Shown here in pieces: positions 15,601 through 33,816 of a stretch of 64,000 nt of DNA. The translations under genes and the position numbers were made by a program. Where the stretch lies: assembly GCF_020382885.2 (NCBI RefSeq), contig NC_058512.1, positions 12,488,802-12,552,801 of the forward strand, given 5' to 3'. Positions within the stretch are counted from its first letter, which is position 1. Each line of letters begins with the position of its first letter. The stretch is from Scatophagus argus. Its lineage: Eukaryota > Chordata > Actinopteri > Scatophagidae. The notes beneath the pieces were generated by a model. It was given only the letters and a program-made list of their open reading frames with translations, did no database searches and was not told the origin of the DNA.

Positions 15601-18600
15601 CTGGCCAGTCAGTCTGGCCTATGACCTTCTGGACAACAGGGTGTATTGGGCTGATGAGAAACTGCGCTGCATCGGCTCGGCTTCTCTGGATGGAGATAAC
15701 GTCAAGGTAAACGCTATCAGTCTATGAAAAGACCCACAATGTTTTAGCATCATTTAAGGAAAACTTCATCATGCAGACTGTTCCCCTTCTCCCAATAGAT
15801 CCTCCAGTTAGTCGAAACACCGAATCCTTTCTCTGTGGCGGTCTTCAATGACAGAGTCTTCTGGTCTGACACAAAAAGAAGAACAATCCGCTCTGCTGAC
15901 AAGAACACTGGCAAAGATCAAAAAGTTCTTCTCAAGAGACCAGGGCAACCATTTGGACTAAAAGTGATTCTTTGTCTTCTTAGCTTAATTAATTTAACAT
16001 TTTCATTTTCATTGAATTCATGAATATCTAAGAACTCACACTTAAATGAGTAGCATTTGGAAAGAGACTACAGTGTTAAATCACAGCTATGGGCCCTGAA
16101 TTGCATATTTCCTCTCTCCTCAGCTGATGCATGCCCTCTCCCAACCCATCATATCCAACCCTTGTGACCAGCTACACTGCTCCCACCTCTGCCTCCTGGT
16201 CCCGGCGGTGAGAGCCAGGTCTGGAACACCAGGGTTGCAGGGAGCTCCAGCAGTGAGTGAGCCTATGGCAGTTTGTCGATGCCCAAAGGGGATGCTACTT
16301 TCTAAGGACAAGATCACCTGCTCTCTGCCCATGGAGTCAACTTTCATCCTGCTTTTGTCTCGTATGACAGTCTACCAGGTGAATGGACACATTGTGGTGG
16401 CAGGACCAGAGAACCTGTTGGCCTTTATTCCTAAACATTTAAAAAAAAAAGTGAAATCTTTTGTAGCTGATTAATTAATATACTTTCTTGCTTTACTTCT
16501 CCTGCTCACTCTTGCTTATTTCCTCCTTATCTGACCCTCCCATCACTCGTAGATTTACTTGCACTCCATGCATCGTGATGGCGTTGCTCTGAAAAAAATG
16601 CCCCCCAGCAGAGTTTTAACCCTTCCTGGGGTAACTGAGGCTGCAGGACTGGATGTGTCCATCAAGGAACTTTCTCTGTATGTAGCTGATTCACAAAAAG
16701 GATCTGTGGATGTGTTGAAACTGAACAGCTCTAAGTCGAGACAGGAACTGAAACCCTCTGGACAGATCTTAAAGCTGAGGGTAAGCGCAATCATCTTTTC
16801 AGGGAAAATTCCCAAGCAGAACATAAATAAAATGCTTTATTATCTTTTGAAGAGTAAGTCTTTGACTTCAGGTAAGTAAGAGAGGCAATTGAAAAGGCAG
16901 AACTTAATAATCTGTCACTGTTAAGCATCTCAGACAAGATAATTTTCCGGTGGTTCTGAGTGACACTTACTCACCGTCACCCTGATCCTCCCAGGATGGC
17001 TCAGTCACGGCTCTGGCAGTGGACTGGGTGACTTCCAACCTCTACTGGAGCAGCACAGAGAGGCCTGATCTCCAAGTGACCTCCCGCCATAACGGCTACA
17101 CCACCTCTCTTCTGCAGGGGTCACTGAAGGTGAAGGAGGATTGGCTTAACTGTTCACATTTGTTTTTTTCTGATCATTTGTCTCCTTTTACGCTGACATT
17201 TGCATGATCCTTCAATGTCCATTTCAGGGCACCACATCCATTGCACTGCATCCTGTCTCGGGACGACTTTGCTACACAGCAATCGTTGTAGCAGGTGGGA
17301 AGAGTCAGACAGAAGTGAGCTGCGCTTGGATGGACGGCCGTAACAAAGTAGTGCTGTGGAGGAAGTCGAGCATCCCCACCTCACTGGTCTTTTCCAATCA
17401 AGGATCTGTGATCTACTGGGCTGACACAGGTGAAGAGTGGAAAACCTCATGTACTTGATGCTTTTTGCTGGCTTGCCTCTGCCTGCCTGCGTGTACCTGT
17501 CTGATTACTCCTTTGCTCCAGGTGAGGGTGTAATCAGCTCTATTGGAGTAGATGGGTCAGGATATAAACAGTACAAAACAGGGCCAGGTCTCCTCATCTC
17601 CTTCACGCGTACCAATAACATCCTCCTCTGGGTCACCCTGGACAAAGGTAAGGATGGAAGTACTCTCTTTTGAAGATTCAGACTGCCACAGTTGTTTGGG
17701 GAAAGTCTTAGGCTAGATTCAGACAAAGCCAGTTGTTGCAGGGATTAGCACAGGATTGTGTGGGAGGACACAAGTGGCACCTTGCTTGGGTTTACAGCTC
17801 TAGTTTGGGATCAACAACTGTTTTAGAGAGGCTTCCTCCATCCGCAATAAGTTTGCAGGGTGTTTCTTTTCCCCTGCCGATGCAGCTTCCTGCCACTTAA
17901 AATGCAAGGACTCGTGTTTAAGCTGTAATGCTGATTTATTCTGAATGTGGCCTCAGGAGTTAGTGTATTTTTTTTCTATTCCACTCCAATAATCTGTTCA
18001 GTCCTGCTTGTGTAATTTATTTTCTCATTAGCCCTGCCTGTCACCTTCGTTTCATTTGTCTTTCTCACCTTCAGGCAGCAGATGGCATCACAGACTAATG
18101 TATCAATGAATAATTCAGTCAACATCCTTGCAGCAATCTGCACTGGCAGACCTGTTAAAAGATCCACTTGTATTTGCTGGCACTGTTTCTCTTCTCTATC
18201 CGGCCCATTATTGTTTCTTTCAAATCTTAATATTTACTATGACGAATGAAGACAGTGTTTCCTAATCAAACCTCTTCCCTGTTGCTCCTAGTTTCTGTAC
18301 TGTAGAAACTTCAGTAGTTGTTGAGTTTTTTTTGTGTGTGTGTGTGTGTTATCTGTGTGTGTGTATTTGATTCCAAACTGTGTAGATGTGACCAAACTGT
18401 GGTTCAGTGATGGTCTCCAACCTAACCAGCTGTGGTTTGAGACAAAGACCACCCTGATGGAAGTCAGAGCCTACAGTGTAGACAGTCAGTCAGGTAGGTA
18501 TCTAATCTGTCTTTAACACAGCAGCTTGAGTTAAAAACAGTTGACTTTATCAGTTGTAAGGCTGCACTCTGCAACTGGGAGGCATGTAGTTAGTAGTAGT

Positions 18601-21600
18601 TAGTCAGGAAAACAGATTTTGGGGCAGTAAAGCTGTACTGTAAGCTATCACTGTATACTGAGATCGAGGTGTAACACCAGTGATGAAGCACTAGATGGCA
18701 GTTGAGACTTGACAGGATATGGAAAATTCCAGAAGGCCCTGTGAATGCAAAGAGTGTGAATAATGAGACAGAGCGGGTGTCAGGAGCAGGTAGCACTGTG
18801 ACATAAATAAAGCATTGAGACCTCAAGAACTGAATAAATAACATGAAGCAAAACAAAACCCCTCAAATCACAATGTCCCAAAACACATTAAAGGCAGCGT
18901 GACGCTGGCTTTAAAAAGTTGTGTAACATCCAGTTTTGTAGGTCGTTTGGAGTGAAGTCGTACTTGTACTAAATGATTGGTACAGTTGGTTACAATTTGT
19001 TTAAAGGGGTTTTTTTTGTTTTGTTTTTTTAATATGCTGTGCATAATAGCACAGAGCATCATGGACTGCTGAACAAGCAGGCCAAGGCTAGCCCTGTCTA
19101 CAAAATAACGAACCAGTTTTGAACTTCTCCAGAGATGTTGTTCCATCATTCCAGGGATCACCACATGCATGTAATACATTAAAGTTTCATCCAGCTGACT
19201 TAGCAGGAGCTGTTTGGAGTCAGTTTCACAACCACTTGAACCTGTAGTCACAGCATGCATTGCATGGAGATTATATTGGATAACATTGTGAAAGTGGGTG
19301 GAATCCTTTTTACCTAATGCTACATAATGTGTTAATTCCTGTCTGGGTTTGTGATGCTAATCAGCAGGCTTGTAGCACCACCGTCAGCTTCATTTGTAAA
19401 ATGAAAGTATGTCCAATCAGTTTGATACTCACAAATTGGGAATTACACTGTCTGCACATTTATATTTCTATATTTCTACATCAACTTTGCCTTCTGTTTC
19501 TGAATGCAGAGAGCAGAAAAAAAAAATTAAAATTAAACCCAAATTTATGCATATTTTATTTGCTCATGCTTTAATTGTGAAAAGCTGTCAGTTTAATTTC
19601 TTCTCAGAAACGATTAAGGATTTGTGTTGTTGCTAATCCTCTTTTGCCCATTTCCTCCAGGGACTAATAGCTGCTCCAACAACAACGGAGGATGTTTCCA
19701 ACTGTGCTTGGCGTATCCCGGAGGTCGGACGTGTAAATGCGGCCACGGCTTCTCCTATGTCAATGCCACTTCCTGTGCTGTGCCCCTTGACTGTCCGTTT
19801 GGGCAAGAGTCTTGCTTTGATGGAAGCAAGTGTATTGACAGCAGCGGGTTCTGTGACGGACATGTGGACTGTCCAGACCGGTCAGATGAGCAGGACTGTG
19901 AGTTTGGAGAGCAAACTGAAAAGGGCTTCTTTTAAATCATTTCAGATTTATTGTGACCTGAATTAAAGAATCAGAAATTTACAGGTCTGAAGTAACAGGT
20001 TCATTGGTACAGAGCAACACCACACAGGTCTTTAATCTTATTTCCTCTTGAAATTTATCTTTCATTAGCCAACTCATTAAAGGAACTATAACTGGGATAG
20101 ATGAGATAATATGATCCCATTTGAATCAGTCTTATAGCTACAGCATTTCCAGCACTGTCCAAAATAGTGCATAAATTGAAGATTGCTAATATTGGTTATT
20201 ATACATTGTATGCAGGGATGCACATCATTGGATTTCTGCCAATTTCCCGCTATTACACATGTGTGTACTTTTTTTTTCCCCTCCACTGAACTGAGTGAAC
20301 TGGTTGCACAGCAAACATTTGGTCATGTTTGAGCAGGAAGTTCACAGGTGGATTGACTGCTGCATTTGACTTAGAGGAGGTGCTGCTGTTTTGCGTGCTG
20401 GTTCACTGTTATTGTTACATTTAGTGGAACTAAGCTGTTCTTGTTAACGCCACCTGTTTTCTTCCTGTTGTGCAGAGAGCATTAAATATTTCCCGTAGTG
20501 GAATGTTATTAAACTTTGTAGTTACAAAGTTTAATAACATTCACTGTCAAAATAAGAAGACTGCTTAGTCAGTGGTTTGTTTCTTGCACAAAATGAGGGC
20601 ATCATCTTATCAGCCTGACATATCAGAAATGTTTATTTTGAGCAATTGGCACATATTTCATGTGAAGGTATCCCTAACTATACTGTAAAGGTTAAAGGAG
20701 AGGACAAAGGTGCAAGTTGGAGGGGAAAAGAGCTCTCAATGGATGCTTAATTTCATACTGGGCCACTGAATTTAGAACCGTGCAATATATGGGAAGAAAC
20801 AAATGTTAATATAAAGAACTTACATCTTCTGAATGGCAACAAACTTATAATAAGTCATGGATGCTTAAAATACTTGAGATACATTTTACTTTTTTAAGAA
20901 AAGCATTTTTCTTGGCTATGAGATAAGATTAAAGGAACAGTACGCTTATTTTCTATCATGCTGAGGTTTAGATTAGAACCTTGAGACCACTCATATCTGT
21001 ATGGCAGATATGAAGCTAATGATTGGTAGTCTGTTAGCTTAGCAGAGCAAAAAGATTGGAAACTGGGAACGCAGCTAGTCTGGCTTTGACCATAGTAGCA
21101 AAACCTCACACCACCTCTAACACCATGTTATATCTTATTTGTTTAATCAGTACAAAAATCAGAGTGGTTTTACGGGATGTTACATCCTGAATTATTTCCA
21201 GGATGAGGTGTGTGTGTGGGGCAATAATTTAAGTGCACTGTAGGAAAATGTTTATCAAAGTTGATTTAAAAAAGTTAAGAGCATTATATTTTGATTAGTA
21301 ATAGTGTAATCACTAACTCTGACTTTGTCTTCAGGTCCAAACACAAACTCTGCCACCTTCGGGGCCAAAGCCGGTGATGTTCGCCCTCCCCAGTTTACGT
21401 CCCCGAGTCACCCCAATTCCCAGAAGAACTCTGTTGTTTCAGTTAAAAAACACCCCACTTCCTGTGAGCTCCTAAATTGCCACGGTCACGGCAGCTGCAT
21501 CACAGAAGCCAAAGTCACTCGCTGCCAGTGTATGGCTGGTTACAAAGGAGAGTTCTGTGAAGATACAGAGACTGGAAGAAACCACGTGGCTGTGATCTTG

Positions 21601-22349
21601 GGTGTCTTCTGTCTCATTGCAGGATTGATGGCTGCTGCTTTTATTTTTGCTAAAAGGTACTGAGCATGAGGAAATGACCAAAGGCATTTAATGCTTTGAA
21701 ACCCTGTGAGAACAGACTAAACATCAGTCTACCTAACATTATTCCATGAACTATTTAGTAAATTAAAACATGTTTTTTATGAATCTGGTTTCAACAGGAG
21801 AGCCTGGGCATCCATCAGAAGCAGATCCATGGAGAAAGAAACTCTGATGGCCAATATGGGCTTGCCTTTTGAACACTGCGATTCAGACTCTGAGGTATAA
21901 TGATAGGCAACTCTTGATTTGACTGTGAAAGCTCATTATTGATCCTGGGAGTATAGTTTTACAAATGAATGAATTTCATTTTTTAATTTACTTGGACTGG
22001 TGAAGTTCTTGTGTCTCAAGTAGTTATTTGAAAAACAGAAAAGATTAATAGGATATAATTTTTACTAATGACAGCAGGTCAGTTACATTTAAGTTATAAC
22101 CTTGAATAAACATTCTGGAGTAATAAGTTTTATGAGCTTAATTGTTATTTCTCATGTTTCAGGCCATTGTTTCTTTTAATTTTTTTTAAATTGTGTACAT
22201 TTCTAACATATGTTATGCCTTCATTAGATAGATTTCAGATTTATAAATTGAGGAAACTGATGTATGGTCTTTGTTCTCCCCAGGAGCTCGATTCCCCAGT
22301 AGACATGAAGAACCCACCACTAGAGTTACAGTCACTGCAGCTCAAATAA
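637..22349 (+). CDS. lrp13: Giant LDL-receptor-related protein, lrp13-like, complete (43 coding exons)
   Basis: A type I membrane endocytic receptor of the LDL-receptor superfamily. My exon model is 637-694, then 42 further exons (listed in the block entries) to the stop at 22347-22349. All exons have GT-AG borders and matching phases, and they total 7,944 nt or 2,647 residues. Domains in order: signal peptide; 4 LDLa; 2 EGF; YWTD propeller; EGF; propeller; 20 LDLa; 2 EGF; propeller; EGF-like; propeller; EGF; LDLa; EGF; membrane helix; short tail. The LDLa repeats bind calcium and lipoprotein ligands, and the propellers release ligand at low pH. The size is about half that of LRP1 or LRP2. 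From memory, fish lrp13 is an ovarian vitellogenin receptor with this kind of make-up. Another LRP family member is possible, so the symbol is tentative, but the family assignment is firm. Confidence 0.85.
695..1808. other. Intron 1 of the LRP-like gene
   Basis: A 1.1 kb intron. It holds a dispersed repeat at about 1200-1470 (listed separately). No exon or conserved element was recognised in the rest. Confidence 0.7.
1200..1470 (+). repeat. Dispersed percomorph interspersed repeat
   Basis: The segment opens with tandem CAATT units followed by TTTTATTTATATAGCACC. It continues through a tract ending GGCAAGGAAAAACTTTTTAACAG and a GAGAGA-rich end. This matches a very common repeat I know from percomorph genomes, whose consensus also carries the tattTATATAGC start and the 'ggaaaaact...ttttaacag' core. 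The family name is uncertain. It lies wholly within intron 1. Confidence 0.6.
1809..3151 (+). CDS. lrp13: LRP-like exons 2-4: first LDLa cluster (4 repeats)
   Basis: The exons are 1809-1931, 2160-2408 and 3038-3151, all phase 1 to phase 1. Exon 2 carries one six-cysteine LDLa repeat, exon 3 two, and exon 4 one. Each has the acidic calcium-binding end (DGSDE, TGSDE, DNSDE, DGSDE). Four N-terminal repeats followed by an EGF pair and a propeller is the LRP-style layout. One repeat per phase-1 exon is typical of the family and allows repeats to be duplicated without a frame change. Confidence 0.85.
3295..3760 (+). CDS. lrp13: LRP-like exons 5-6: EGF plus calcium-type EGF
   Basis: The exons are 3295-3414 and 3635-3760. 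Exon 5 encodes an EGF domain starting [12 protein letters not shown]. Exon 6 starts DLDEC and contains [12 protein letters not shown], the calcium-binding EGF signature. This pair links the first ligand-binding cluster to the first propeller, as in LDLR, VLDLR and LRP1. Confidence 0.85.
3942..6452 (+). CDS. lrp13: LRP-like exons 7-10: YWTD propeller 1
   Basis: The exons are 3942-4145, 4983-5151, 5358-5526 and 6230-6452. Degenerate YWTD blades are visible: WYYWAD, NVFWTN, LMFWIN, RLYWIS and SFYWVD. Blade-end motifs of the type SWMDGSER and VKMDGTGR are also present. The exon 10 acceptor (ATTTCATGAAG) is pyrimidine-poor, but it is the only one that keeps the reading frame and the [13 protein letters not shown] blade junction. 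Confidence 0.8.
6833..6952 (+). CDS. lrp13: LRP-like exon 11: EGF after propeller 1
   Basis: This is a 120-nt phase 1-1 exon. It encodes a short EGF-like domain with six cysteines, starting [16 protein letters not shown]. It closes propeller 1, as the C-terminal EGF does in other LRP propeller units. It lies between the donor of exon 10 and the acceptor of exon 12 and was found by matching phase and cysteine pattern. Confidence 0.75.
7160..8659 (+). CDS. lrp13: LRP-like exons 12-14: YWTD propeller 2
   Basis: The exons are 7160-7378, 7736-8044 and 8441-8659, about 249 residues, the size of one six-bladed propeller. Blade motifs include WLYWAN, SLYWVS, GIVWLE and SLLWNS. The motifs are more degenerate than in propeller 1. 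No EGF domain follows: exon 15 goes straight into LDLa repeats, which departs from the usual propeller-EGF unit. Confidence 0.75.
8817..9365 (+). CDS. lrp13: LRP-like exons 15-16: LDLa triad 1 of the second cluster
   Basis: The exons are 8817-8963 and 9117-9365, encoding LDLa repeats 5-7. Exon 15 carries one full repeat and then the first cysteine of the next (STCPSE). Exon 16 supplies the remainder ([13 protein letters not shown]) plus a third repeat with the [11 protein letters not shown] motif. One repeat is therefore split by an intron. The same three-repeat arrangement recurs three more times downstream. Confidence 0.85.
9466..10081 (+). CDS. lrp13: LRP-like exons 17-18: LDLa triad 2
   Basis: The exons are 9466-9696 and 9833-10081, LDLa repeats 8-10. 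Exon 17 begins with a linker of about 30 residues rich in Thr and Pro, then CSRPSVLCP. It ends after the first cysteine of the next repeat. Exon 18 has no in-frame ATG near its start, but its frame is open and clearly homologous to exons 16 and 20 ([18 protein letters not shown]). The triad is very similar to triads 1 and 3 in both protein and DNA. Confidence 0.85.
10515..11604 (+). CDS. lrp13: LRP-like exons 19-21: LDLa triad 3 plus two repeats
   Basis: The exons are 10515-10709, 10846-11112 and 11389-11604, LDLa repeats 11-15. Exon 19 starts with a Thr/Pro/Glu linker ([15 protein letters not shown]). Exons 19-20 repeat the triad, and exon 20 continues into the first cysteine of repeat 14. 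Exon 21 completes repeat 14 ([10 protein letters not shown]) and adds repeat 15. The five-repeat block is paralogous to exons 22-25. Confidence 0.85.
11707..13120 (+). CDS. lrp13: LRP-like exons 22-25: LDLa triad 4 plus two repeats
   Basis: The exons are 11707-11889, 12089-12211, 12307-12474 and 12905-13120, LDLa repeats 16-20. The order matches exons 19-21: Thr/Ser linker, [14 protein letters not shown] repeat, [11 protein letters not shown] repeat, [11 protein letters not shown] repeat, then [10 protein letters not shown] and a final repeat. In this copy the second and third repeats are in separate exons (23 and 24), whereas the other three triads have them fused in one exon. Confidence 0.85.
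13248..14234 (+). CDS. lrp13: LRP-like exons 26-28: last four LDLa repeats of cluster 2, start of EGF
   Basis: The exons are 13248-13477, 13683-13812 and 14044-14234. Exon 26 holds two LDLa repeats; the last cysteine of the second is supplied by exon 27 (EK-NC). Exon 27 holds one, closed by the TGC codon split with exon 28. Exon 28 holds the last ([10 protein letters not shown]), then the first half of an EGF domain. Phases run 1-0, 0-1 and 1-0, unlike the uniform 1-1 exons before, so these repeats were probably not part of the recent duplications. Confidence 0.8.
14432..14618 (+). CDS. lrp13: LRP-like exon 29: EGF end and calcium-type EGF
   Basis: The exon starts RCYCAAGF, completing the EGF domain begun in exon 28. 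It then encodes a calcium-binding EGF starting DVDECNAV, with [15 protein letters not shown]. It introduces propeller 3. The acceptor is TTTTTGCAG, and the exon is phase 0 in and phase 1 out. Confidence 0.8.
14872..15963 (+). CDS. lrp13: LRP-like exons 30-33: YWTD propeller 3
   Basis: The exons are 14872-15084, 15227-15410, 15505-15706 and 15799-15963. Blades are clear: RVYWLS, NLYWVD, LMLWSE, RVYWAD and RVFWSD, with SWMDGSKR at a blade end. An upstream AG (CTTACAG at 14846-14852) gives the wrong frame, so the acceptor TCTCCAG ending at 14871 was chosen. This is the best-preserved of the four propellers. Confidence 0.8.
16124..16378 (+). CDS. lrp13: LRP-like exon 34: EGF-like domain with an insertion
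   Basis: This phase 0-0 exon of 255 nt encodes [15 protein letters not shown], then a spacer rich in Ala, Gly and Pro between cysteines 3 and 4, then AVCRCPKGM and a final cysteine. It closes propeller 3. The remaining residues ([15 protein letters not shown]) start the first strand of propeller 4. Confidence 0.7.
16553..18493 (+). CDS. lrp13: LRP-like exons 35-39: YWTD propeller 4
   Basis: The exons are 16553-16780, 16995-17129, 17228-17429, 17522-17647 and 18386-18493. Blade motifs are degenerate: LSLYVAD, NLYWSS, RLCYTA, VIYWAD and ILLWVT. Exon 39 is a short phase 1-1 exon (VTKLWFSDG to DSQSG). All five have canonical borders and keep the frame. Confidence 0.75.
18494..19660. other. Intron 39 of the LRP-like gene
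   Basis: A 1.2 kb intron with no supported exon. It contains a CTCF-like match, GCACTAGATGGCAG, at 18688-18701, and poly-T runs. A (GT)n repeat lies in the preceding intron at 18332-18364. Confidence 0.6.
19661..19897 (+). CDS. lrp13: LRP-like exon 40: EGF and LDLa repeat
   Basis: The exon encodes an EGF domain ([14 protein letters not shown]), then LDLa repeat 25 ([22 protein letters not shown]). The final LDLa cysteine is the TGT codon split across the intron to exon 41. That split makes exon 41 at 21335 the correct partner for this exon. It is a lone LDLa repeat near the membrane, after the last propeller unit. Confidence 0.8.
19898..21334. other. Intron 40 of the LRP-like gene
   Basis: A 1.4 kb AT-rich intron with no exon recognised. 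It contains a perfect long inverted repeat at 20501-20542 (listed separately). Confidence 0.6.
20501..20542. repeat. Perfect 20-bp inverted repeat, 2-bp spacer
   Basis: The left arm is GAATGTTATTAAACTTTGTA. The right arm at 20523-20542 is its exact reverse complement, with only GT between them. It lies in an intron and would form a cruciform in DNA or a 20-bp hairpin in RNA. No small-RNA gene is claimed. Confidence 0.85.
21335..22349 (+). CDS. lrp13: LRP-like exons 41-43: EGF, membrane span, cytoplasmic tail
   Basis: The exons are 21335-21656, 21798-21894 and 22284-22349. Exon 41 encodes a Ser/Pro-rich linker, an EGF domain ([12 protein letters not shown] to FCED), and a membrane helix ([20 protein letters not shown]) followed by AKR. 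Exons 42-43 encode a tail of about 54 residues ending LQSLQLK. The tail has no tyrosine and no NPxY; the nearest thing is NPPL. A possible dileucine-type signal, EKETLM, and an acidic serine stretch (DSDSEELDS) are present. Confidence 0.8.
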
Positions 22350-22514
22350 AGTTCTGAAATAAGGCATCCAGTGAACACCTGGTGGCTGATTACTGTGGGA
22401 TCTTGTACTATATTTGCAGTGTTGGTTTCATAACAAACCTGAAGGCTGCAGATACCACGAGGGTGTGTTTTTGTGTTGCTGAATTTAACTTTGGTGTAAT
22501 AAGATGAAAAAAGA

Positions 22515-22520
22515 AATAAA
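22515..22520 (+). terminator. Polyadenylation signal of the LRP-like gene
   Basis: AATAAA lies 166 bp past the stop codon. A second AATAAA overlaps the stop itself at 22345-22350 and is too early for a normal 3' UTR, though it could be used. The resulting 3' UTR would be short. Confidence 0.5.
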
Positions 22521-22539
22521 CCAAAACCATGAACTTGTG

Positions 22540-25500
22540 CAACCATGACTTTTTTTTCTAACTCTTACATTAGTAAGTAACCATAATAATGCTCTTTTCG
22601 GCAAACAATCTTAATTTTGACATTTGATTTACACATGTAGATTTTAAGAGGGTATGTTTTACCAGCATTACGTGATGCTTAAAATTCAGTTTATCCAGGT
22701 GACTGCTCAGTTTAACACATCCAGTGATAATGTAAGGCCATTTTCCCAGACTTAAAGTCAGACAGATTTGTCACCGTGTTTAATCTCTTTATGTCTGACT
22801 TTGTCTCTGTTGGGAGCTTCTGATTGTTTTCTTCCGCCTTTTATATTTGTGTGTTTATTGTGTATCTTGCTAATGCTTCTGTGCTGACAATGGTTCACCC
22901 TTGTCAAAACTGCTTGTCCGCTAATGCCTGTGTTGTCTCCACCTGTAGTAGTTTAGCTCAGCTGATAGACAACTGAACATACAGCGGCTCTTCTCAAAAT
23001 CACAATGATGGTTTACATCATCCAAAGCTCAGAGTTTAATACTTTGTCCTTGTTAGCCTTGAATAAATGTTTTCACCTATCATATCCTACACCACAGATT
23101 AGCCTGACATCACAGAAGTGCTCCTTTCAGTTTGTGTTCCAGCTTACCATGTTAGTCTGTAGCTGTTTTGTAATCAGATACCAGTTTTGATATAATGCTT
23201 CCGTGTGACATTTTGATTCAACAGAAAAAGATTGCTTTGTTTGCTTCCACCTGACAGTCAAGCTCGATTCAGATGGTCAGGACATTTTTTTTTTTTTATA
23301 TGTGTGTGTTAATTGTACAGCAGAAGTCATGCAAGCTTCTCTAGACTCCGCCTCACAGCAGAGCCTGAGAAAACAAACATGGGCCGTATCGTTGCATATC
23401 ATCATATTACGCTGCTTTAGCTTTGAGCAAACTCACAGTCTGTTGACTCAGACTCTCATGAAAAGTCTGAGAGTACAATAATATGTAATACAGTATAAGT
23501 AGTGTTGTGGAAAGCTATACATACGTGCCTATCCCAGCTGACTACGAGCGAGAGGCGGGGTACACCCTGGACTGGTCGCCAGTCAATCGCAGGGCCAACA
23601 AACAAAGACAGACAACCACACACTCTTACACTCACACCTAGGGGCAATGTAGAGTAGCCAATTAACCTAATGTGCATGTTTTTGGTATTGTGGGAGGAAG
23701 CCGGAGTACCCGGAGAAAACCCACGAACCTGGAACCCTCTTGGTAACAGTGCTAACCACTGCACCACCGTGCCGCCCATGCTGGAAATCAGTAAATAAAA
23801 CTTTAAGCCTTTGTGGTAGTTACGCTGTCATTTTTAAAAACTATAAATAACCAAACAGAAAGCATACCAAGCAAACTGCACACATATTAGTTTAAGAGGT
23901 GTAACCGGTTGCATACTGTTTTTGCTTACTGCCTCACCCAAGACTGCTGCAATTAAATGTTTGATTATGGGTAGGGCGGGGTGTCAAAACTAAGTGCCAC
24001 CAGTCCATTTAGTGACTGCAACAAGCTTTACTCAAATAATGATCTCCATCCTCATCCAGGTCTTTCTTAGAGACCCCAAGGCACTCCCAGACTGGATATG
24101 CAATCCCTCCAGCATCTTCTGGTCTGCTTTGTGGAGTCATCCCCCTCCCCCCTCCAAGCACATTTGAGGCTGCTGGGAATGTCAAGTGTTGGAGTTAGTT
24201 TTGGGGTATCAGGTCATTGATTCTGCTCAAAGTCTTGAACAGAATCTGAAACTGAAATTGAAAAGTCTGATCTAGGGATCACCAGTGTCAGTGGGATCTG
24301 TCCTTTCCTTACAATCAAGGCACTGACACTACTTTTTTATTTTTTTTCCTTAGGCTACACAACAGATGTTTGAACTGTCGCATGTTACACAGACATGTCC
24401 ATCGAGTCAGGCGACCAGCTGAGTCTTGTTCTAACTTGCCTCCTACTCCTTCTCCTCTTCCCATCCCCCCACTACTCTGGTAGACACACCTACTCTATAT
24501 TAGTATAATCCTGAGGGTAAAAATGCGTGAACATGTGTATGTTTAAGTGTAAGTTATATCGTCGTTAGGAAAAGTGAGGGTCCAATTCATGGGTATTTAA
24601 TATTTTTGCACCATTTCTTTGCCTGTGTCATTACTGCATGCTTATTTCATGGGACATTGTCTGAAAGGTGCCGCACAAATTAAGCTCATTTTCCCAGGAA
24701 TGCCAGAGCAATGAGTTTTGTGAGTCAGTATGAGTCAGCAATTAACTGAAGCCATACATTAGTCTGCACTGTCCTAGTAAAATGTAAAGTTGCTACATCA
24801 GTGACAGCTATATGGTGAGTAAGAGTGTTTATACATGACTCAGTAAGAGATAATGCAGAGGGAGGAGGAGGTGATTTCGTGTGAGTGTGTATTTATGGGA
24901 ACAAAACAGGCAGGTATTCACAGGTCTCGGTTTTCTTTCGCTTCCTTCCTTATTGTTGCAGATTCCCTTAGTGCAAGAGGAACTTCAAATTCCTGTAGGA
25001 CCTTTAACACAAACAGTCACAGACACCTGGACGATCCTACTACAAAGAATAAAAAGTGAGTAGATGTTTTTCATTTGTACTTTGTTGCTGTACTCTTTGC
25101 TATCCTATATGCCTGTCCTGTCTTGAAACCAGTGTTGAGCACAACCATATTGTATTGGTAGGAAACCTGAACAACCAGATACTTGAGAAGTAAGATAACT
25201 TTCTACTGTCACCAGCAGCACTTATTTATCGGTTATCAGGCTCCTGTCTCACGTGTCATTGAATTTTCCTAAGAAATATATTCATGGTAAGTTCCGATGA
25301 ATGGTCCTGCATCTTCTAACATGCATTTATTTTGCTAGTATATCCTAAATCAGTCTCTGTATACCTAACTTTGTAGATTATTTTTAAAAATAGTTTCTCA
25401 TATAGAAAAAAATAAAAAAAATCTGATTTTATCTTCAAACAAGATGTGTAATCTTTCAAGTTGTTTCTCACACTGCTGTGTACCTGCAGTTAGGTTGTTA

Positions 25501-26413
25501 CTCACTTTTGGTCATTTGTATATGAAAATTTAAAAGTAAAATATGTTTGAAGGTGAGATGCAACACAGCCCAGCAGCTGACAGCTCCATATTGTATGTTG
25601 GCAGTGGAAATTGTCTGCAAAACTACACAGTCAAGCATTACTATTTACATACAATATCTTGTTTTCTTTCTTTCTTTCTTCCTTTAATTAATGTATACTG
25701 ATAGAAATCTATAAACAGCACTATGTGGTATTAAATATGCATGTTTGGGAATATTAAGATAGACAATCCTCAAATCCCATCAGGTTGGGATGATGTAAAA
25801 TTCAGGCATCCTGTCTTAAATGTTAACTACAATCTTTAAAGCTTGCGATTCTAGCATTTCAATCAGGAACATGAAGGCAGCACAGTCTTTGAGCACAGCA
25901 TGCAATCACTACAGGCAACAAAATGTATGAAAGTTGAAATGCACCAAATAAATTTAAAAAAAAAATCCCATGTGGAAGAATATAGCAATAAAATGTGATG
26001 AATTCCCCATGAGGTAAAAGAGCTTATAAAGTACTGTCCACCAGAAAAATATTTTCCATCAAAAATTGTCCTTGAAATCAGTTTACACAAGTTCAGTCAA
26101 ATCAAGATTGGACAACATAACAAAGGTTCAGCCACTAACACAGATTGAGGGCTCACAGTGTTAGGTCTGACATTAGAGGCTTTTTGCAGCATGTTTGCAA
26201 TGCTTGTTTTTTTTCTCCATGTTGGGTTAAAGGAGGGCAGCTAATACATGCTTCCAGACATGTTTGACTGAGCCACACTTCAACACGTACATTTGAGCTC
26301 TGTGATTGTTTGTCATCTTCCTTCTTGTGTTTCAGGGTGTGGCTTCTTTCCATTCATCTCATCTCTTCTCCATTTGCTCCCTTAATAGCTTGCTTTGTCC
26401 TTTCTTCCTTCAG
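22540..26413. other. Region between the receptor's stop and its second C-terminal cassette
   Basis: About 3.9 kb, AT-rich, holding one dispersed repeat on the - strand (about 23525-23780) and a weak candidate exon at 24962-25055 (see findings). No gene is otherwise supported. Confidence 0.55.
23525..23780 (-). repeat. Dispersed retroposon common in teleosts
   Basis: On the - strand it starts GGGCGGCACGGTGGTGCAG (complement of 23762-23780). It contains the stretches for the cell-header sequence ending GGAGGAAGCCGG and for GACTGGCGACCAGTCCAG. It runs to CAGCTGGGATAGGC. These are hallmarks of a very abundant teleost short element, from memory; the family name is not certain. The TGGATGG tail is missing from this copy. 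Confidence 0.7.
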
Positions 26414-27511
26414 CTCCCTCCTCTGTGATGTCAACCCCTGTCCCTTCTCCTCAACCAAGAGGCATCGACTACAGCCTTCCCACCTGTGGAGAGACTAAGT
26501 GCAATAGCCACGGGGTCTGCGTGGCACCTCCTGGTGGTGGCACTGATTTGGTGTGTGACTGTGTCCTTGGCTACCGGGGACAACACTGTGAGGACACTGT
26601 CAACGGGGCCCTAAGCCTGCCACTGACCCTGAGTGTGTTGGCCGTCATCTTCGGCCTGCTGATTATGGCTTTCATCTTTGCCAAATTGAGGCAGAAACAA
26701 AAGAAGAGCCAGAGGTACTGAAGAACTCAGTGGTGTCCTTCTTGAACAACAATTGCTTTCAACAGAAAAGCTTTTCCATGCTTTGCTTTCTGTTCAAGAG
26801 TGCGATGAGAAGAATGACATCAATCTCATCTGTGCATTAAAAAACAGAGCTGGATATGGTTAACTTAGCTTAGCATAATGACTAAAAGTAGAGGGAAACT
26901 GTTAGATGAACTGAAATTTTGCTAAGAAATAAGTGCACTATATAGTGTATAGTACTGGGGCAACTAACTATTACGCCAACAAGGAATGACATCACATTCT
27001 GAATACATAGATAGCTTTGCAGCAATAGCAAATTCCACTCTACTGGTAGGGATTTCCATGAGATTTTTAAATATTTCTGTAGGAATATTTGCACATTCAG
27101 GCAGTAGAGCAGTTCATCCCAAAGGTGTTTGCAAGCATAGCATTGTCCAAAATGTCTTGGTATGCTGAAACATTAGATTTCCCTTCACTGGAGTAAGTAA
27201 GACACCTAGCCCATCTCCTGAAAAACAGTCCCGTAAAAAGATGTGTCTGGATACTTTTGTCTGTATAGTGTATATATGTTGTATTTGTTTTGAATTGTTC
27301 ACTTATTTGGTCAAAATTGTAACTGAAAATTCTGAACAAAACTGCCTGAAGTGGATGCTTATAGTTTTAGATTGTGCATTTGCCTGTTTGGCAGAACACC
27401 AGTTATATCAACATGAGATCAGAGTATGTTAACAAATTATTTGTGTGTGTTTTGTTTGTTGTCAACAGGAGACAGCAAACTGAAAAAAATGGCTGCAATA
27501 TTGCGGTGTAA
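26414..27511 (+). CDS. Second copy of the receptor C-terminus: EGF, membrane span, tail
   Basis: Exon A at 26414-26714 encodes a Ser/Pro linker, an intact six-cysteine EGF domain (CGETKCNSHGVC to HCED), a membrane helix (LTLSVLAVIFGLLIMAFIFAK) and a basic stretch. It is homologous to exon 41: same phases (1 in, 2 out), same FIFAK end, same AG|GTACTG donor. Exon B from 27469 follows an acceptor like that of exon 42 (TCAACAG|GAGA). It reads 14 codons to a stop at 27509-27511, giving a basic tail ending NGCNIAV. The frame is intact throughout. It may be an alternative 3' end reached from exon 39 or 40, or a partial tandem duplicate; no complete second gene lies upstream. Function is inferred only from homology to the first cassette. 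Confidence 0.6.
26935..27277. mobile_element. Tc1/mariner-like DNA transposon remnant
   Basis: The segment includes GCAGTTCATCCCAAAGGTGT, ATTGTCCAAAATGTCTTGGT and CCCATCTCCTGAAAAACAG. These resemble internal parts of a fish Tc1/mariner-type element I recall. The ends carry CACTATATAGTGTATAG and TCTGTATAGTGTATATAT. It is too short to code for a transposase, so it is a deleted, non-autonomous copy. It sits in the intron between exons A and B of the second C-terminal cassette. Confidence 0.55.
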
Positions 27512-27539
27512 TGAGGATAAATCTCCATTATATCAGAGG

Positions 27540-30500
27540 TAGGCATCTGGCCATTTGATATTTATTGGGAAATGCTTTCAATTTTGAGAAAGTGTGTTAC
27601 CTGAGAATCAAGTTTGACAAAATAAAACATATGTAAAGGTATTAGAATTTAATATTGATACTAAACCATTTGATGTAAAAATGACTACACTCACAATGAA
27701 GTATGTACTCATGGCAAAAGTGTACCATACTTGAAGGTACCCTGTGAAGTTTTTATTACCTAAAAAGTTTTTCACTAAAATGTATTGTGTGTAATCTTCA
27801 GATCTAAACATGTTGAACTGCATTTCCATCATCAATCGACATCTATTTTTTATATATATTTTAATTCCTCCACATCCATGTTTGATTGCTAACAGTCTTC
27901 ACTACCTTTGTTTATACATGACTAGATTTGTTGGTGCGTTACTGCCACCAACTGTGTAGAGGCAGGATGTGAAATGTACACAAGTAATCATAACACAAAA
28001 AAGGGAAAAAACAAACAAAACAGGACTCCATAAGTGCTCCATAGCACTACTAGTGGCCAAAAGCGCCATAGGATACCTTTAACACACCAACAACATGTTA
28101 CATGTGTCTTCATGTGGATGCCAGAAACTTTTCTGCCACTATAACTGAGATCCCAAAAATAATAAATAATCACTTTCTTCCCCTCCTTCAGGTCAACCAT
28201 GACACTGTGACCAGTGGCAATATTGTGCTTCCGTCAGCATCCTTCTGCAGCAGCCTTACAATTACACATTTTCTTTAATTTGTGCGTGTGTGTGTATTTT
28301 AAAGTATATCTCCAAACACGTGACTCATTAAAAGCAAATATTATGCAAGGAGATCACAGATGAGATCGAGACAAGTAAGGGATGTTTACAGGCATGAGTG
28401 TAACACTGGCCTTTCATTGAGCCGTGTTTGAAGCATTGAGGTTTTACGTGAAGAACACAGCAGGAAGCTGTTGACTTGTTTCAAGCTGTTGACATAATGC
28501 ATTATTGCTGTTCAGCAACTCTACATCAGCATCCATTTAGGTAGAAAGTTTATGAAATATGTATTTTTCATAGAAAATATAAAATAATTGAAAAACATCA
28601 GTTTGAGAAAGAAATTTTGTCACTAACATAATTTACATGTAGCACAATCAAAACCCTGTGGATAATGTGCACTATCATTATCCATGAACAGCCACACATT
28701 CTGAACATGATGTAATCCAACTCCAATTCACAGATGTTTTCTGTTTGTTTGCTTTTAGATTGATTGTTTTATTTATAGAATTATATAGAAAAATATTGTG
28801 GCTGAAAGAAAATTAACACCATTGCTTTTTAAAGCTGGTGCAACCACTTTTATGTTGTGGGCATTTTGACTGTCCGCACATTGACTGACTTTTTAATAGT
28901 AATTACTGTCTTTGGTGGACCAGTGGCTTCCTTTAAATACATAGAAAGCCGAGCTGACTGTTATAGTGATAGTGAAAAACTGTGAGTGCTGTGATTATAT
29001 GCGTAACACTGAGGGAGCAAGAGGAAGAACTTCAGGTTTTTCCTCATAGTAATCCATGTCATACAGGGTAAACCAGGAACCAGACTTGATTGGTTATGAA
29101 GAAATGCATGCTTTTAATCAGTTGTGGTCACTGAGATTTTTGTACTTTGTGTACTGCATTATCATACCATCACTTTTGCATTTTTTGCTTTCAGCCTCTT
29201 GCGAGATGCCTGTTGCGTTTATTTGTTTCGGAAGACTCAGGTTTGCTCCCAGCTGAAAAAAAAAAAAGGAAAAAGGGGTCTTCAGTTTGTTGAGTAACCT
29301 GCAAACTGAGATTTGAGATCTGTTTCCCTGAGCATTGAGAATAAGCAAGGTCAGAAGCTTTGCAAAGTCAGTTGTGTCTGCAGATTTCCTCTCACTTTAT
29401 CTCAGTGTCCACTTTGTTTCATGCTTGCTGTGTCTATGTGCTTTCACAGTAAATCATGTGCTGCCTAATTGTCAACTTGCAGACTGCCGTCTTAGTGGTC
29501 CTCCTACATGATGTGCTCTTACTGATGAATCAAGTCTTAGGAGCATTGCCAGTGTTAAGTGCTTTTTTTGTGCTCTTTTTTAAATGTCTGTTTCTTTAGT
29601 ACATTGACTGAATAACTACGCTTTATATGTTTTGTTGTAATTCATGATTCTCAAAAGCATTAGCAAGATGCATAAAAGTTTCTATAATCTCATCTTCCTC
29701 TCTGTTTTTGTCTTTCCACAGTAATTCATTTATCATGTGTTGAATCACTGAGTGTGTCGGGGTTAATGAGTTTTGGAAATATACAGCTGTTTTTTTTTTA
29801 GATAGTGAGAAAAGTATTGCTCACCGTCAAGAGAGCTCTTCAAGGCCTGTTCTGCATTTGCAAAGCAAGTTTGGTTATAAAGGTAATACTTAAAAAGAAA
29901 AGAAATAATAAAGTACATAGCAGTGGTTGCTAGTAAATAGCATGCAGCAGCAATCTTATTAACAAAGGTGACTAAATAAACACTACAAGCTATCAGGCTG
30001 ACAGTTACATCAGCCTGGCTTACAGCTTAAACAATACCGTGCCAAACATGGATGACAGAAAAGGAATTTAAAAATGAAGCAAAACAGGATCTGGAAAGGC
30101 GTGCACATATATTTTAGTTTTGGGTGCTTGAAATAGCTCGTTCTGAGGGGATAAAAAAGACTTACACATTTTTCTCTCAAGACTAGTGATGGTCATTAGT
30201 GGGAAAAATAAAAAACCTTTACTGGAATTAAAAAACACTGTTTAAAATGAGAAATGCCTTTACTTCACCTTTTATATTATAAGACAACAACTTTACTGCA
30301 CTTACGCTTTTTTGTTTTCACCAGCTTTCAAATAAAAAGTACAGACACTCATTGACTCGAAGCTTTGTTTCTTATGGTCTACATGACAGGAAAGATTTTA
30401 AAGGCTGTCACTAGAAAAGTAAAGATTTTCCCCTTTTGTTCTAGCATGAATTATTTGCAGCTCTTTTGGATGTTACATGAGAGACAAGGCTCTTTCCCTT

Positions 30501-31980
30501 TAAACACAATGCCAAACCATTAAGTTGTTCTTACAAGCTGCTTTAAGGTGTCAGTGTGTATTAACACTTAAAACAGGCAGCTGTCTGTGTGTGATGTGTG
30601 TAAACTAAAACATGTATCGTTGTCTGTGTAACTTGTGGGATTAAGTTACACGGACAGCATCGGCTTCAGTGTTAACTAAGCTCAACAGGAACTGAAAGGC
30701 TTATCTGCAGTAGTACAGGCTAACTAGTCTTTTTAATGCTGGCAAATAAATGAAAAAGCTTACTTTACAAACAGAGAAATGGGCACTTAGAGGGTAAAAC
30801 GATAATGGTTGCATTATGGGAAATGTAGGAGCCAGCACTTCAGGAGCTTGAAACAACACAGAAACTAAAGGTCAGCTTATGTCAGCCCTCATTCGCACAT
30901 TGTTTTAAATTCATCTTTTGTAAGTCTACCAACTTTTCAGTGTAATACTAAATTCAAGCATCACGCCCGAATATATTATGTTTTCCAGTGCTGGTAACAT
31001 TTATCATTACATTTATCATTCCAAACCACTCATTGTGCCACACTCATCTATCGTCACCCAATCTGTCTTGTATAGTCATTGTTTGAGTCAGCTTATTATA
31101 ATAAAAGAAAACATTGCACTTGTCTCAAAGTAAATCTCAGAACCAACTACAGAACCACTATCGCTCTCAAACATGCTCCTGTATTTACCTGTAGAGGTGG
31201 TAACACACTGTTGTCACAATCGACTGTCATTATTGTTGTGTTGTCATAATGTTAAGTGAACTATTTCTTGAGTTGTTTCAACACAAGTACAGTAACGCTA
31301 TGTCTACTTGAAGAGTAGACGTATAAAAGCACAAAAACTGCTAACGTTTGCTTTAACTCAGTTGTTGTTGGCTGCAGAATTCAACAGGTCCTGCTGCTTT
31401 GTGGCAGGCCAGTTTAACTACAGAGGGCTTACCAGGAGCCATAGAGGGACAATTGTTCACTACAGTGCAGCCTTGTTTGTGATGTTAGGCCACTTTGAAC
31501 AGAGGAGGTAATGTTGTCAGACAAGATACGTAAAGAAACCAACCTCTCAGACTGGTCAGGCTACATTTTCTGTATACTTATGACTGAGCGGGCAGGGTGG
31601 CAAAGAAAGAAAAATAACTCTAAAACATAGTCTGTCAGTATGTGTTTAGTGTCCATAACAACTTCTGTCCTTTTCTGTCTGTCTGTGACACAGCTGAAAG
31701 CCATCACTATGAATAGCTGATGGAATATGCATTACTTTGCTTCTGTAAAATGTTAGATTCACTTTTCTGATGCATTACACACACATGACATTTTTTAGGT
31801 GTTGCACAAGATTCATCAGACACATTTGATAATATCAGAATATGGTTGTGAGCTGACTTTCCCTGCCGCACAGCCGAATAAGCCTCCATCAGTCTGCAGT
31901 CTTTTTTTTTTGTTTTTTTGCTTCACTCCTGCTCTTCACAAACATGTCGAACTTATGACAACACATTTAACCCCACTGCG
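27540..31980. other. Intergenic region, no gene supported
   Basis: About 4.4 kb of AT-rich sequence. Only short open frames are present and none has recognisable homology. A possible third exon of the second C-terminal cassette starts at 28192, after CCCCTCCTTCAG, but it is weak. No RNA gene was recognised. Confidence 0.55.
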
Positions 31981-32988
31981 CTGACATGATTTTTACACCA
32001 GCCAAGCAAAACAAAAAGAGTAAAGATGAAGAAAGGAACTCGACCATCTGTTTTTAGAAAACACAATGCACATTTAATACACAGCACTTGTATCACAGAG
32101 CATTTAGAACAACGTTGATCCTCAGGATGCTTTTTTTTTTTCAACAGGTGGCCCATTGTCTTACAGGGTTGGTTATAATCGTAAAGTGCATAAAAATACA
32201 GTATTCGCACAAAAATGGAGGAAAAAAAATTGGGCAGTTTACACAGAAAAAAAAAATGCAAATGCTTCCTTAAACATGACTATTTACAAATGGAGTTCAG
32301 CATCAGCAGAATGTGAAAGACAGCCACTTTAAATTTCAACTCGGTATCAATTTTCTTCAAAACAAAGTAGGTTTTCTCTCTATCTTTCACTGTTACAATA
32401 ATACAGAATGCCTTCACCTTCCATAACTGCTTCATGTATAGGCATCTGGTGTATTATCATAATGTCAGCGTTAATAATAACCCAACTGAGCCCATAAGAA
32501 GTCTCATTTACAGTCACATCAAACTTCAGCCATGGATCTGTCACTTTTTTCACACTATCATAGATGTCTGAAGAATCACTTCACTAATGATGAAACACTC
32601 TCTTACTCAATTGGCCTTTAAAGCTGCTTCACTTAACTGTGAATTTGCAGTAATTTCCCAATTTTTAAGTCAGCCTGTTTGTTCTCTGAGTACGACTGAA
32701 ATATTTCCACAGTGTTACTTTATGGCCTCATAATAATTCTACATCACTCAGCAATTAGTGTGTGGTCACTTTAAAGTACTCATGTTAAGTTCTCCAGAAT
32801 ATTACATATGGGTACACTTTGACTGACAGTGGACTAGATTTGTGATGTTATGAAGTCACTGTCTAATTACCATGGGTTCTTCTTAGAATATTTTCCACCC
32901 TCAGCCCCTTTTACAAATGTCCATCTTGAAGTTGTTTCCCTCTCCTTTGGGGTGTTTAGTGCGTCTCCAGATGTGGGTTACCTGCGCC
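31981..32988 (-). other. cldn23: Probable 3' UTR of cldn23
   Basis: About 1 kb downstream of the claudin stop on the - strand, with no coding frame. A minus-strand ATTAAA (plus-strand TTTAAT near 32073) is a plausible polyadenylation signal, which would give a UTR of about 0.9 kb. The extent is inferred, not seen. Confidence 0.35.
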
Positions 32989-33816
32989 TCATAAGTCGGC
33001 ATCGTAGGGTCTGCCGCTGTAGGAGGTGTTGACTGACCGGGCGGGGCTCTTTGCCCTGGGGAAGGACACATCTTCATCCATGGAGTCCTTGGAGTACGGC
33101 ACGCTGCTGCTGGCGCTGCTCCTGGAACGGTTCAGGTTTGGGACTTCAACTCGTCTCGGCGGCGGCTTCTGGTGGCTGAACCGGGTGCCCATGACCTCCT
33201 CAACCCGTCTCTCCCCTCTGTTCTTACCTCCGCAGCAACGGCAGATCCCGATGAACATCACGAAGCCGCCCAGGACTTCGAATATCCCTCCGATGTAGCC
33301 CAGAACGATGCTGTAGCCGACTTCCACATCTGCGAGCGGGCTCACCGAGGAGATTTCTCGGTGGATGTGGGTGTACCAGGCGATGGGTATGATGGTCATG
33401 ACGCCCGAGAGGAAGATCAGCAGTCCGCCCAGGCCGGCCACTGTCCAGTTAGGCCTATCTTTCCAGCAGCGAACACCCGGGATGGCCACGGCCAGCCCGA
33501 GAAGAGTCACGATTAGGGAGGCCACCATCAACCCCTGGGCGACCCTGATGATCTGGTTGCTGAAATACGTGGTGTCCTCGAGGTTGCACTCATCTCTCGA
33601 GCTGGTTGAAGTGGCCCTGCAGATGTCCCATATGCCTTGCTGGATGAACTGGTCGGACGGAGTGTTGGGGATGTTGTGGATGGTCCTCCAGTTTGGGGCC
33701 ACGGTGGCGGTCAGGTCCAGGATCCAGCCACAGGGAGCCAAAACCATCCCGAAGATCAGGATGCCCGGTGTGCGGAGGGACAACCGGATCCACTCGTCCG
33801 CTGATCGCCCCGGCAT
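32989..33816 (-). CDS. cldn23: Claudin-23, intronless, complete
   Basis: A four-span tight-junction protein of 275 residues. I chose the ATG at 33816. The open frame extends 49 codons upstream, but that part has no claudin homology, whereas MPGRSADEW runs directly into the first membrane helix. The first extracellular loop has the claudin signature: W43, G61-I-W63, C66 and C77. Helices lie roughly at residues 18-38, 92-112, 126-146 and 171-193. The stretch RTPGILIFGMVLAPCGW and the end in DADL (a PDZ-type C-terminus) match claudin-23, as I recall human CLDN23 ending in DSDL. The single exon also fits this claudin. The long C-terminal tail is Ser/Arg-rich. In tight junctions claudins set paracellular permeability; which ions claudin-23 affects cannot be read here. 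Fish can have two cldn23 paralogues, and I cannot tell which this is. Confidence 0.9.
   Translation of the reverse strand: MPGRSADEWIRLSLRTPGILIFGMVLAPCGWILDLTATVAPNWRTIHNIPNTPSDQFIQQGIWDICRATSTSSRDECNLEDTTYFSNQIIRVAQGLMVASLIVTLLGLAVAIPGVRCWKDRPNWTVAGLGGLLIFLSGVMTIIPIAWYTHIHREISSVSPLADVEVGYSIVLGYIGGIFEVLGGFVMFIGICRCCGGKNRGERRVEEVMGTRFSHQKPPPRRVEVPNLNRSRSSASSSVPYSKDSMDEDVSFPRAKSPARSVNTSYSGRPYDADL

Follow-up and report, generated by a model that had tools for sequence, protein, structure and literature searches.

A second copy of membrane-anchor exons, probably under selection, downstream of an LDL-receptor-family gene in Scatophagus argus

A 64,000-nucleotide stretch of Scatophagus argus DNA (the window) raises the question of what a second set of membrane-anchor exons might serve for when it lies behind the last exon of a complete receptor tail. 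The window carries much of a large LDL-receptor-family gene, which is on the + strand and ends at 22349. Some 10.7 kb separates it from a minus-strand claudin gene (Pfam PMP22_Claudin, E 2.4e-18), past which a tankyrase gene starts within the window (PDB tankyrase-1 match, E 3.7e-129). Exons A and B, which form the second set, sit between the receptor and the claudin gene, 3' of the receptor gene. The features are listed in Table 1; a splice-site percentile ranks the site among every AG or GT of the + strand.

Table 1. Features of the receptor 3' end and of the downstream exons (positions in the window)
Feature	Position	Strand	Remarks
Receptor exon 39	18386..18493	+	donor in phase 1; joins exon A in frame
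Receptor exon 40 (EGF and LDLa)	19661..19897	+	phase 1 donor; joining to exon A changes last LDLa Cys to Ser
Receptor exon 41 (EGF and transmembrane)	21335..21656	+	paralogue of exon A
AGGTACTGA across exon 41 donor	21655..21663	+	Arg-Tyr-stop if intron retained
Receptor exon 42 (tail)	21798..21894	+	likely paralogue of exon B at acceptor and first codons
Receptor last exon	22284..22349	+	tail end LQSLQLK-stop; AATAAA at 22345 and 22515
Candidate exon X	24962..25055	+	acceptor percentile 0.994, donor 0.986; no ATG; AATAAA at 25048
Exon A	26414..26714	+	stalk rich in Pro and Ser, one EGF module, a transmembrane helix with FIFAK at its end, then a basic juxtamembrane part; entered in phase 1, left in phase 2
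First ATG of an X-A-B message	26428..26430	+	in frame with EGF; product 109 aa
AGGTACTGA across exon A donor	26713..26721	+	in-frame Arg-Tyr-stop if intron retained
Exon B, coding part (RRQQTEKNGCNIAV-stop)	27469..27511	+	exon A supplies part of its first Arg codon; entered in phase 2
Exon B as internal exon	27469..27538	+	strong donor, percentile 0.989, 27 nt past stop
AATAAA	27621..27626	+	110 nt past exon B stop; may serve as poly(A) signal (hexamer frequent in window)
Possible 3'UTR exon C	28192..28350	+	acceptor percentile 0.999; ATTAAA at 28327; 3' end guessed

The receptor was compared with solved structures in a PDB search, in which its best relative was LRP2 (E 0); its predicted exons from 6833 on alone amount to 2092 residues. 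Judged by eye, the exon chain gives LDLa clusters, EGF modules, apparently four propeller blocks, and then EGF, LDLa, EGF, helix and tail. The LDLa module of exon 40 (Pfam 26.5 bits, cut-off 24.1) is an extra one near the receptor C-terminus, and in this the receptor is like Lrp13, for which the available part of PMC9935665 gives an extra LDLa repeat close to the C-terminus, a size of 1234 aa in eel and rchy1 as the upstream gene in teleosts. Size and neighbours give no clear answer: at least 2092 residues are predicted here against 1234 in eel, and the genes seen next to the receptor are claudin and tankyrase, the upstream side lying beyond the window. As the eel protein is the shorter one and different flanking genes are given for Lrp13, the receptor gene was left unnamed. 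Further upstream, three LDLa-pair exons (9117-9365, 9833-10081 and 10846-11098) have a pairwise DNA identity of 75.5-77.9 percent over 249 nt, and their likeness is read as a sign of internal duplication of the ligand-binding repeats.

Exons A and B were found at their previously described coordinates with the phases, EGF pattern, helix end, donor and acceptor that had been ascribed to them, and A-B resembles the receptor anchor (nearest solved relative LRP2, Lrp13-like extra C-terminal LDLa) in the EGF module, the FIFAK end of the helix, entry in phase 1 and exit in phase 2, the donor GTACTG within AGGTACTGA and the acceptor TCAACAG/GAGA. In exon A the six EGF cysteines are intact (spacing 4,5,11,1,8; ending GQHC) and the module stands directly before one transmembrane helix, which was assigned by eye; the Pfam EGF score is under the curated cut-off of 21.5 in both exon A (19) and exon 41 (21.3). 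When A+B was aligned with the receptor C-terminus, 30/91 residues were identical (E 7e-16 in a single comparison), and exon 41 matched A by tblastn with E 2e-13. The alignment score of 135 was reached in 0/2000 shuffles in each of three schemes, the maximum in the strictest of them (cysteines fixed, the other residues permuted only inside the stalk, EGF, helix and tail blocks) being 91. Since the best PDB match of A+B reached only E 0.083, exon 41 is the nearest relative found. Searches for relatives gave 4 pattern matches in virus contigs and 96 in prokaryote contigs, 0 of either confirmed, in collections that are uninformative on fish. With these alignments the homology of exon A to exon 41, already claimed in the preliminary description, is confirmed: exon A is a clear and ancient homologue of that exon.

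Coding potential was scored with a simple exon model that used generic splice weight matrices and a generic initial codon table, the latter then refitted on exons predicted in this window, possibly exon A among them; the scores are relative. Exon A scored 29.5 and exon 41 scored 18.4, and the best control candidates reached 10.1 (12,181 nt of + strand intergenic sequence), 17.5 (34,530 nt of minus strand) and 10.5 (20 dinucleotide shuffles). Third-position GC of exon A is 0.63 (range in 20 receptor exons 0.44-0.79), and the acceptors of A and B rank at percentiles 0.996 and 0.977.

For exon B the homology to exon 42 is weaker and rests on phase 2 and on the 11-mer TCAACAGGAGA, which is found at both acceptors. 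Three copies of this 11-mer are present in the window (6285, 21791 and 27462), the one at 6285 lying inside another receptor exon; the mean in 100 shuffles was 0.09, and three copies were seen in 0/100. The exon B tail has little in common with exon 42, and MAFFT lined up neither the junctions in the two acceptor regions (exons B and 42) nor the shared donor in the two donor regions (exons A and 41). Of the proposed descent of exon B from a copy of exon 42, the phase and the acceptor thus hold, and the tail and the MAFFT alignment of the junctions do not bear it out. The A-B intron had also been described as containing a transposon remnant, and we presume that it resembles a common fish element; its terminal inverted repeat (13-nt arms, 77 percent) is no better than chance, the score being reached in 113/1000 shuffles, and the remnant was dropped. 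Two further candidates were rejected: TTTCAACAG at 26757, an acceptor-like sequence ~50 nt past exon A, scored poorly at the base tried, and a longer exon B tail that assumes one A missing from a run of seven was supported by nothing but the longer frame.

The age of the copy was estimated from 65 aligned codons, which gave pS 0.72 and pN 0.40, with pN < pS in 1999/2000 codon bootstraps, a difference that averages both copies; at four-fold sites of identical residues, 7/9 differ. Silent sites are saturated, yet the frame is unbroken, neither the helix nor any of the six EGF cysteines has been lost, and no pseudogene marks (stops, frameshifts, lost key residues) were found in exons A and B despite the high divergence. 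By this measure the copy is old. Neutral decay was simulated from exons A+B in 3000 runs with unconstrained mutation and indels assumed at 0.07 per substitution. At 0.2 substitutions per site the frame was still open in 17.8 percent of runs (open without an indel in 2/3000), at 0.6 in 2.9 percent (0/3000) and at 1.0 in 1.4 percent (0/3000).

These values bear on the explanation that A and B are the tail end of a lost full-length tandem copy of the receptor, a relic still open by chance or expressed without function. Had the whole gene been copied in tandem and the ectodomain of the copy then been lost, its last exons would remain in this place, and exon B, which is unlike exon 42 past the junction and soon stops, would suit such a relic; survival of the frame, cysteines and helix through saturated silent change is, however, very unlikely in the neutral simulation. 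Moreover, when 41 predicted receptor exons were searched against 22350-33000 by tblastn, only exon 41 gave a significant match, to A (next best 0.014, among many weak matches), which leaves no trace of any other exon of such a copy. A relic is accordingly considered unlikely. Exon A is probably selected coding sequence, and the earlier suggestion that the copy is under selection is supported, within this single genome, by the intact frame at saturated divergence, the exon score and pN < pS.

It is known that alternative last exons can arise by duplication of terminal exons, and A and B are like such exons in being tandem homologous terminal exons of equal phase, 3' of the first set (clearly so for A, less clearly for B). 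The joins to the receptor were translated. The join of exon 40 to A gives DEQDS, so that, as predicted, the last LDLa cysteine is replaced by serine; exon 41 completes that cysteine by starting with GT. As A has no GT start, it is no clean substitute for exon 41, in which it differs from known alternative last exons, and mutual exclusion of the two is weakened while other routes remain. The join of exon 39 to A and B had been expected to do no damage, and it is indeed in frame, but it omits exon 40 and with it one EGF and one LDLa module. A third route, exon 41 to B, which was absent from the earlier list, is in frame and would be a pure tail swap.

Through the routes 39-A-B or 41-B, a receptor transcript running past 22.5 kb could acquire an alternative C-terminus with another anchor or tail and no endocytic signal. 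We regard this as a serious though not a probable explanation. The two routes are in frame, the acceptors of A and B are good, the phases of exons 41 and 42 are kept in the copies, and it is the anchor exons only that have a recognisable copy; set against this are the cysteine lost on joining exon 40 and the modules removed on joining exon 39, segment X, which would be left without explanation, and the AATAAA motifs after the receptor stop (22345 and 22515), which precede A. The last point is weak, as AATAAA is too common to mark gene ends (47 on the + strand of the window, 7 in 22350-26413, 1 inside segment X). The preliminary description had gone further and proposed two mutually exclusive receptor C-termini. 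The homology of exon A and its retention by selection are supported; the broken cysteine, the dropped modules and the position of X before A speak against the two C-termini, which are possible but not favoured. Nothing on a further anchor or a different C-terminus of a receptor of this kind was found in the available parts of PMC9935665, PMC4651544, PMC11772764, PMC4581250 and PMC10961373, nor among the matches listed; alternative splicing is reported for lr8 and not for lrp13 in the part of PMC9935665 available.

Segment X may offer a different entry into A. With cut-offs taken from X's own scores, it is the only acceptor/donor pair of 50-200 nt that is as strong and open in some frame in the 12,181 nt of + strand intergenic sequence, and the 34,530 nt of minus strand yielded 0 such pairs. 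Two phases of X are open: 0 to 1, in which it could code into A, and 1 to 2, in which the exon chain prediction read it and which does not feed A. Upstream of X, 24354-24479 is exon-like with a score of 8.6, which is within the range of chance candidates, and may belong to the same unit as X, A and B or be nothing.

From the letters of the DNA, A and B are best read as an ancient tandem copy of the receptor's membrane-anchor exons, kept by purifying selection, and tentatively, as the likeliest of the explanations weighed but short of an even chance, as the coding portion of a separate small transcription unit, X-A-B-(C). We lean slightly to such a separate small gene over the receptor ending. 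It draws on the homology and on the frame that is intact at saturated silent divergence and in excess of the neutral simulation, on the score of exon A above every candidate in three controls, on the rarity of pairs like X in the + strand intergenic sequence, on the first ATG after the ATG-less X opening the EGF frame, and on the receptor side, where exon 40 joins A only by breaking a cysteine and exon 41 alone of 41 predicted exons was copied recognisably in 22350-33000. The DNA sequence analysis found no transcript, promoter or signal peptide for it, and an ATG-to-donor scan of 22400-26350 gave no convincing exon, signal-peptide exons included, that reads in frame into A. Also unfavourable are the self-derived cut-offs for X, the AATAAA (25048) beside its donor, its phase in the exon chain, the uselessness of so common a motif for marking gene ends, and the phase 1 entry of A, which matches exons 39 and 40 and is expected of an alternative receptor exon too. 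The same phase 1 entry, with X open from phase 0 to 1, would allow upstream coding and hence a longer unrecognised gene whose upstream exons, including a signal peptide, were missed by the exon scan; in view of the ATG-to-donor result, this is thought quite improbable.

If the small gene is real, the unit X-A-B-(C), lying between receptor and claudin, would be translated from the ATG at 26428 into a 109-residue protein that crosses the membrane once. Its one EGF module would face outward, its helix would act as a reverse signal anchor, and its tail would be short and basic; the receptor's anchor exons would have been turned into a small membrane protein of their own. Relative to the receptor anchor, the stalk of A-B is shorter, FIFAK is followed by 9 extra residues before the splice, and the tail, short and basic, lacks EKETLM and has the C-terminus NIAV, which presumably would suit a class II PDZ ligand, a weak indication. 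In the receptor tail EKETLM is encoded within 21798-21894, and we take it to fit the acidic di-leucine pattern. The NPxY endocytic motif, which the available part of PMC11772764 gives for the tail of eight LDL-receptor family members, is absent from the receptor tail and from the A-B tail alike. With neither NPxY nor the di-leucine-like signal, the A-B tail would suit a tethered EGF module or a non-internalised receptor form; the small-gene product, at the cell surface, would be the former and would not drive uptake.

An EGF-family growth factor was also considered for exon A. ErbB-ligand precursors are alike in that one EGF module adjoins a lone transmembrane helix, and their consensus has a C1-C2 spacing of 7 (C-x7-C) and Arg before the sixth Cys. 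Exon A has a C1-C2 spacing of 4 and His before C6, and by this consensus it was rejected as such a factor.

The donors of exons 41 and A share the 9-mer AGGTACTGA, which occurs in the window at 21655 and 26713 only; as two or more copies anywhere were seen in 13/100 shuffles, the evidence lies in the matching position and not in the count. The codons across the donor are AGG TAC TGA in both exons, so that with the intron kept the receptor protein would end KRY and the copy SQRY, and neither exon has a strong donor (percentiles 0.913 and 0.903). That the letters after the GT are unchanged while silent sites are saturated may point to a retained-intron ending that is in use, to a constraint on the donor, or to chance at this short length. 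In a speculative extension, which we hold to be rather unlikely, the receptor would use the spare cassette as a tail switch, through 39 to A-B, 41 to B or the retained intron (Arg-Tyr-stop), each producing a surface form without an endocytic signal, and AGG-TAC-TGA would be a conserved third ending. Were the cassette used by the receptor, it would be a controllable way to change the internalisation of a large lipoprotein-type receptor; were the tail switch true, a single gene would make two receptor forms, one for uptake and one that would bind ligand but not internalise it.

The analysis also covered other features. No tRNA genes were found and Rfam gave 0 matches at the gathering threshold. 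The segment 23540-23790 resembles a dispersed fish repeat and may be one; blastn of 22350-33000 against the window gave no second copy at E 1e-3. Directly before a tankyrase ankyrin exon, 45550-46370 holds long CT-rich tracts and a Gly/Arg-coding low-complexity run.
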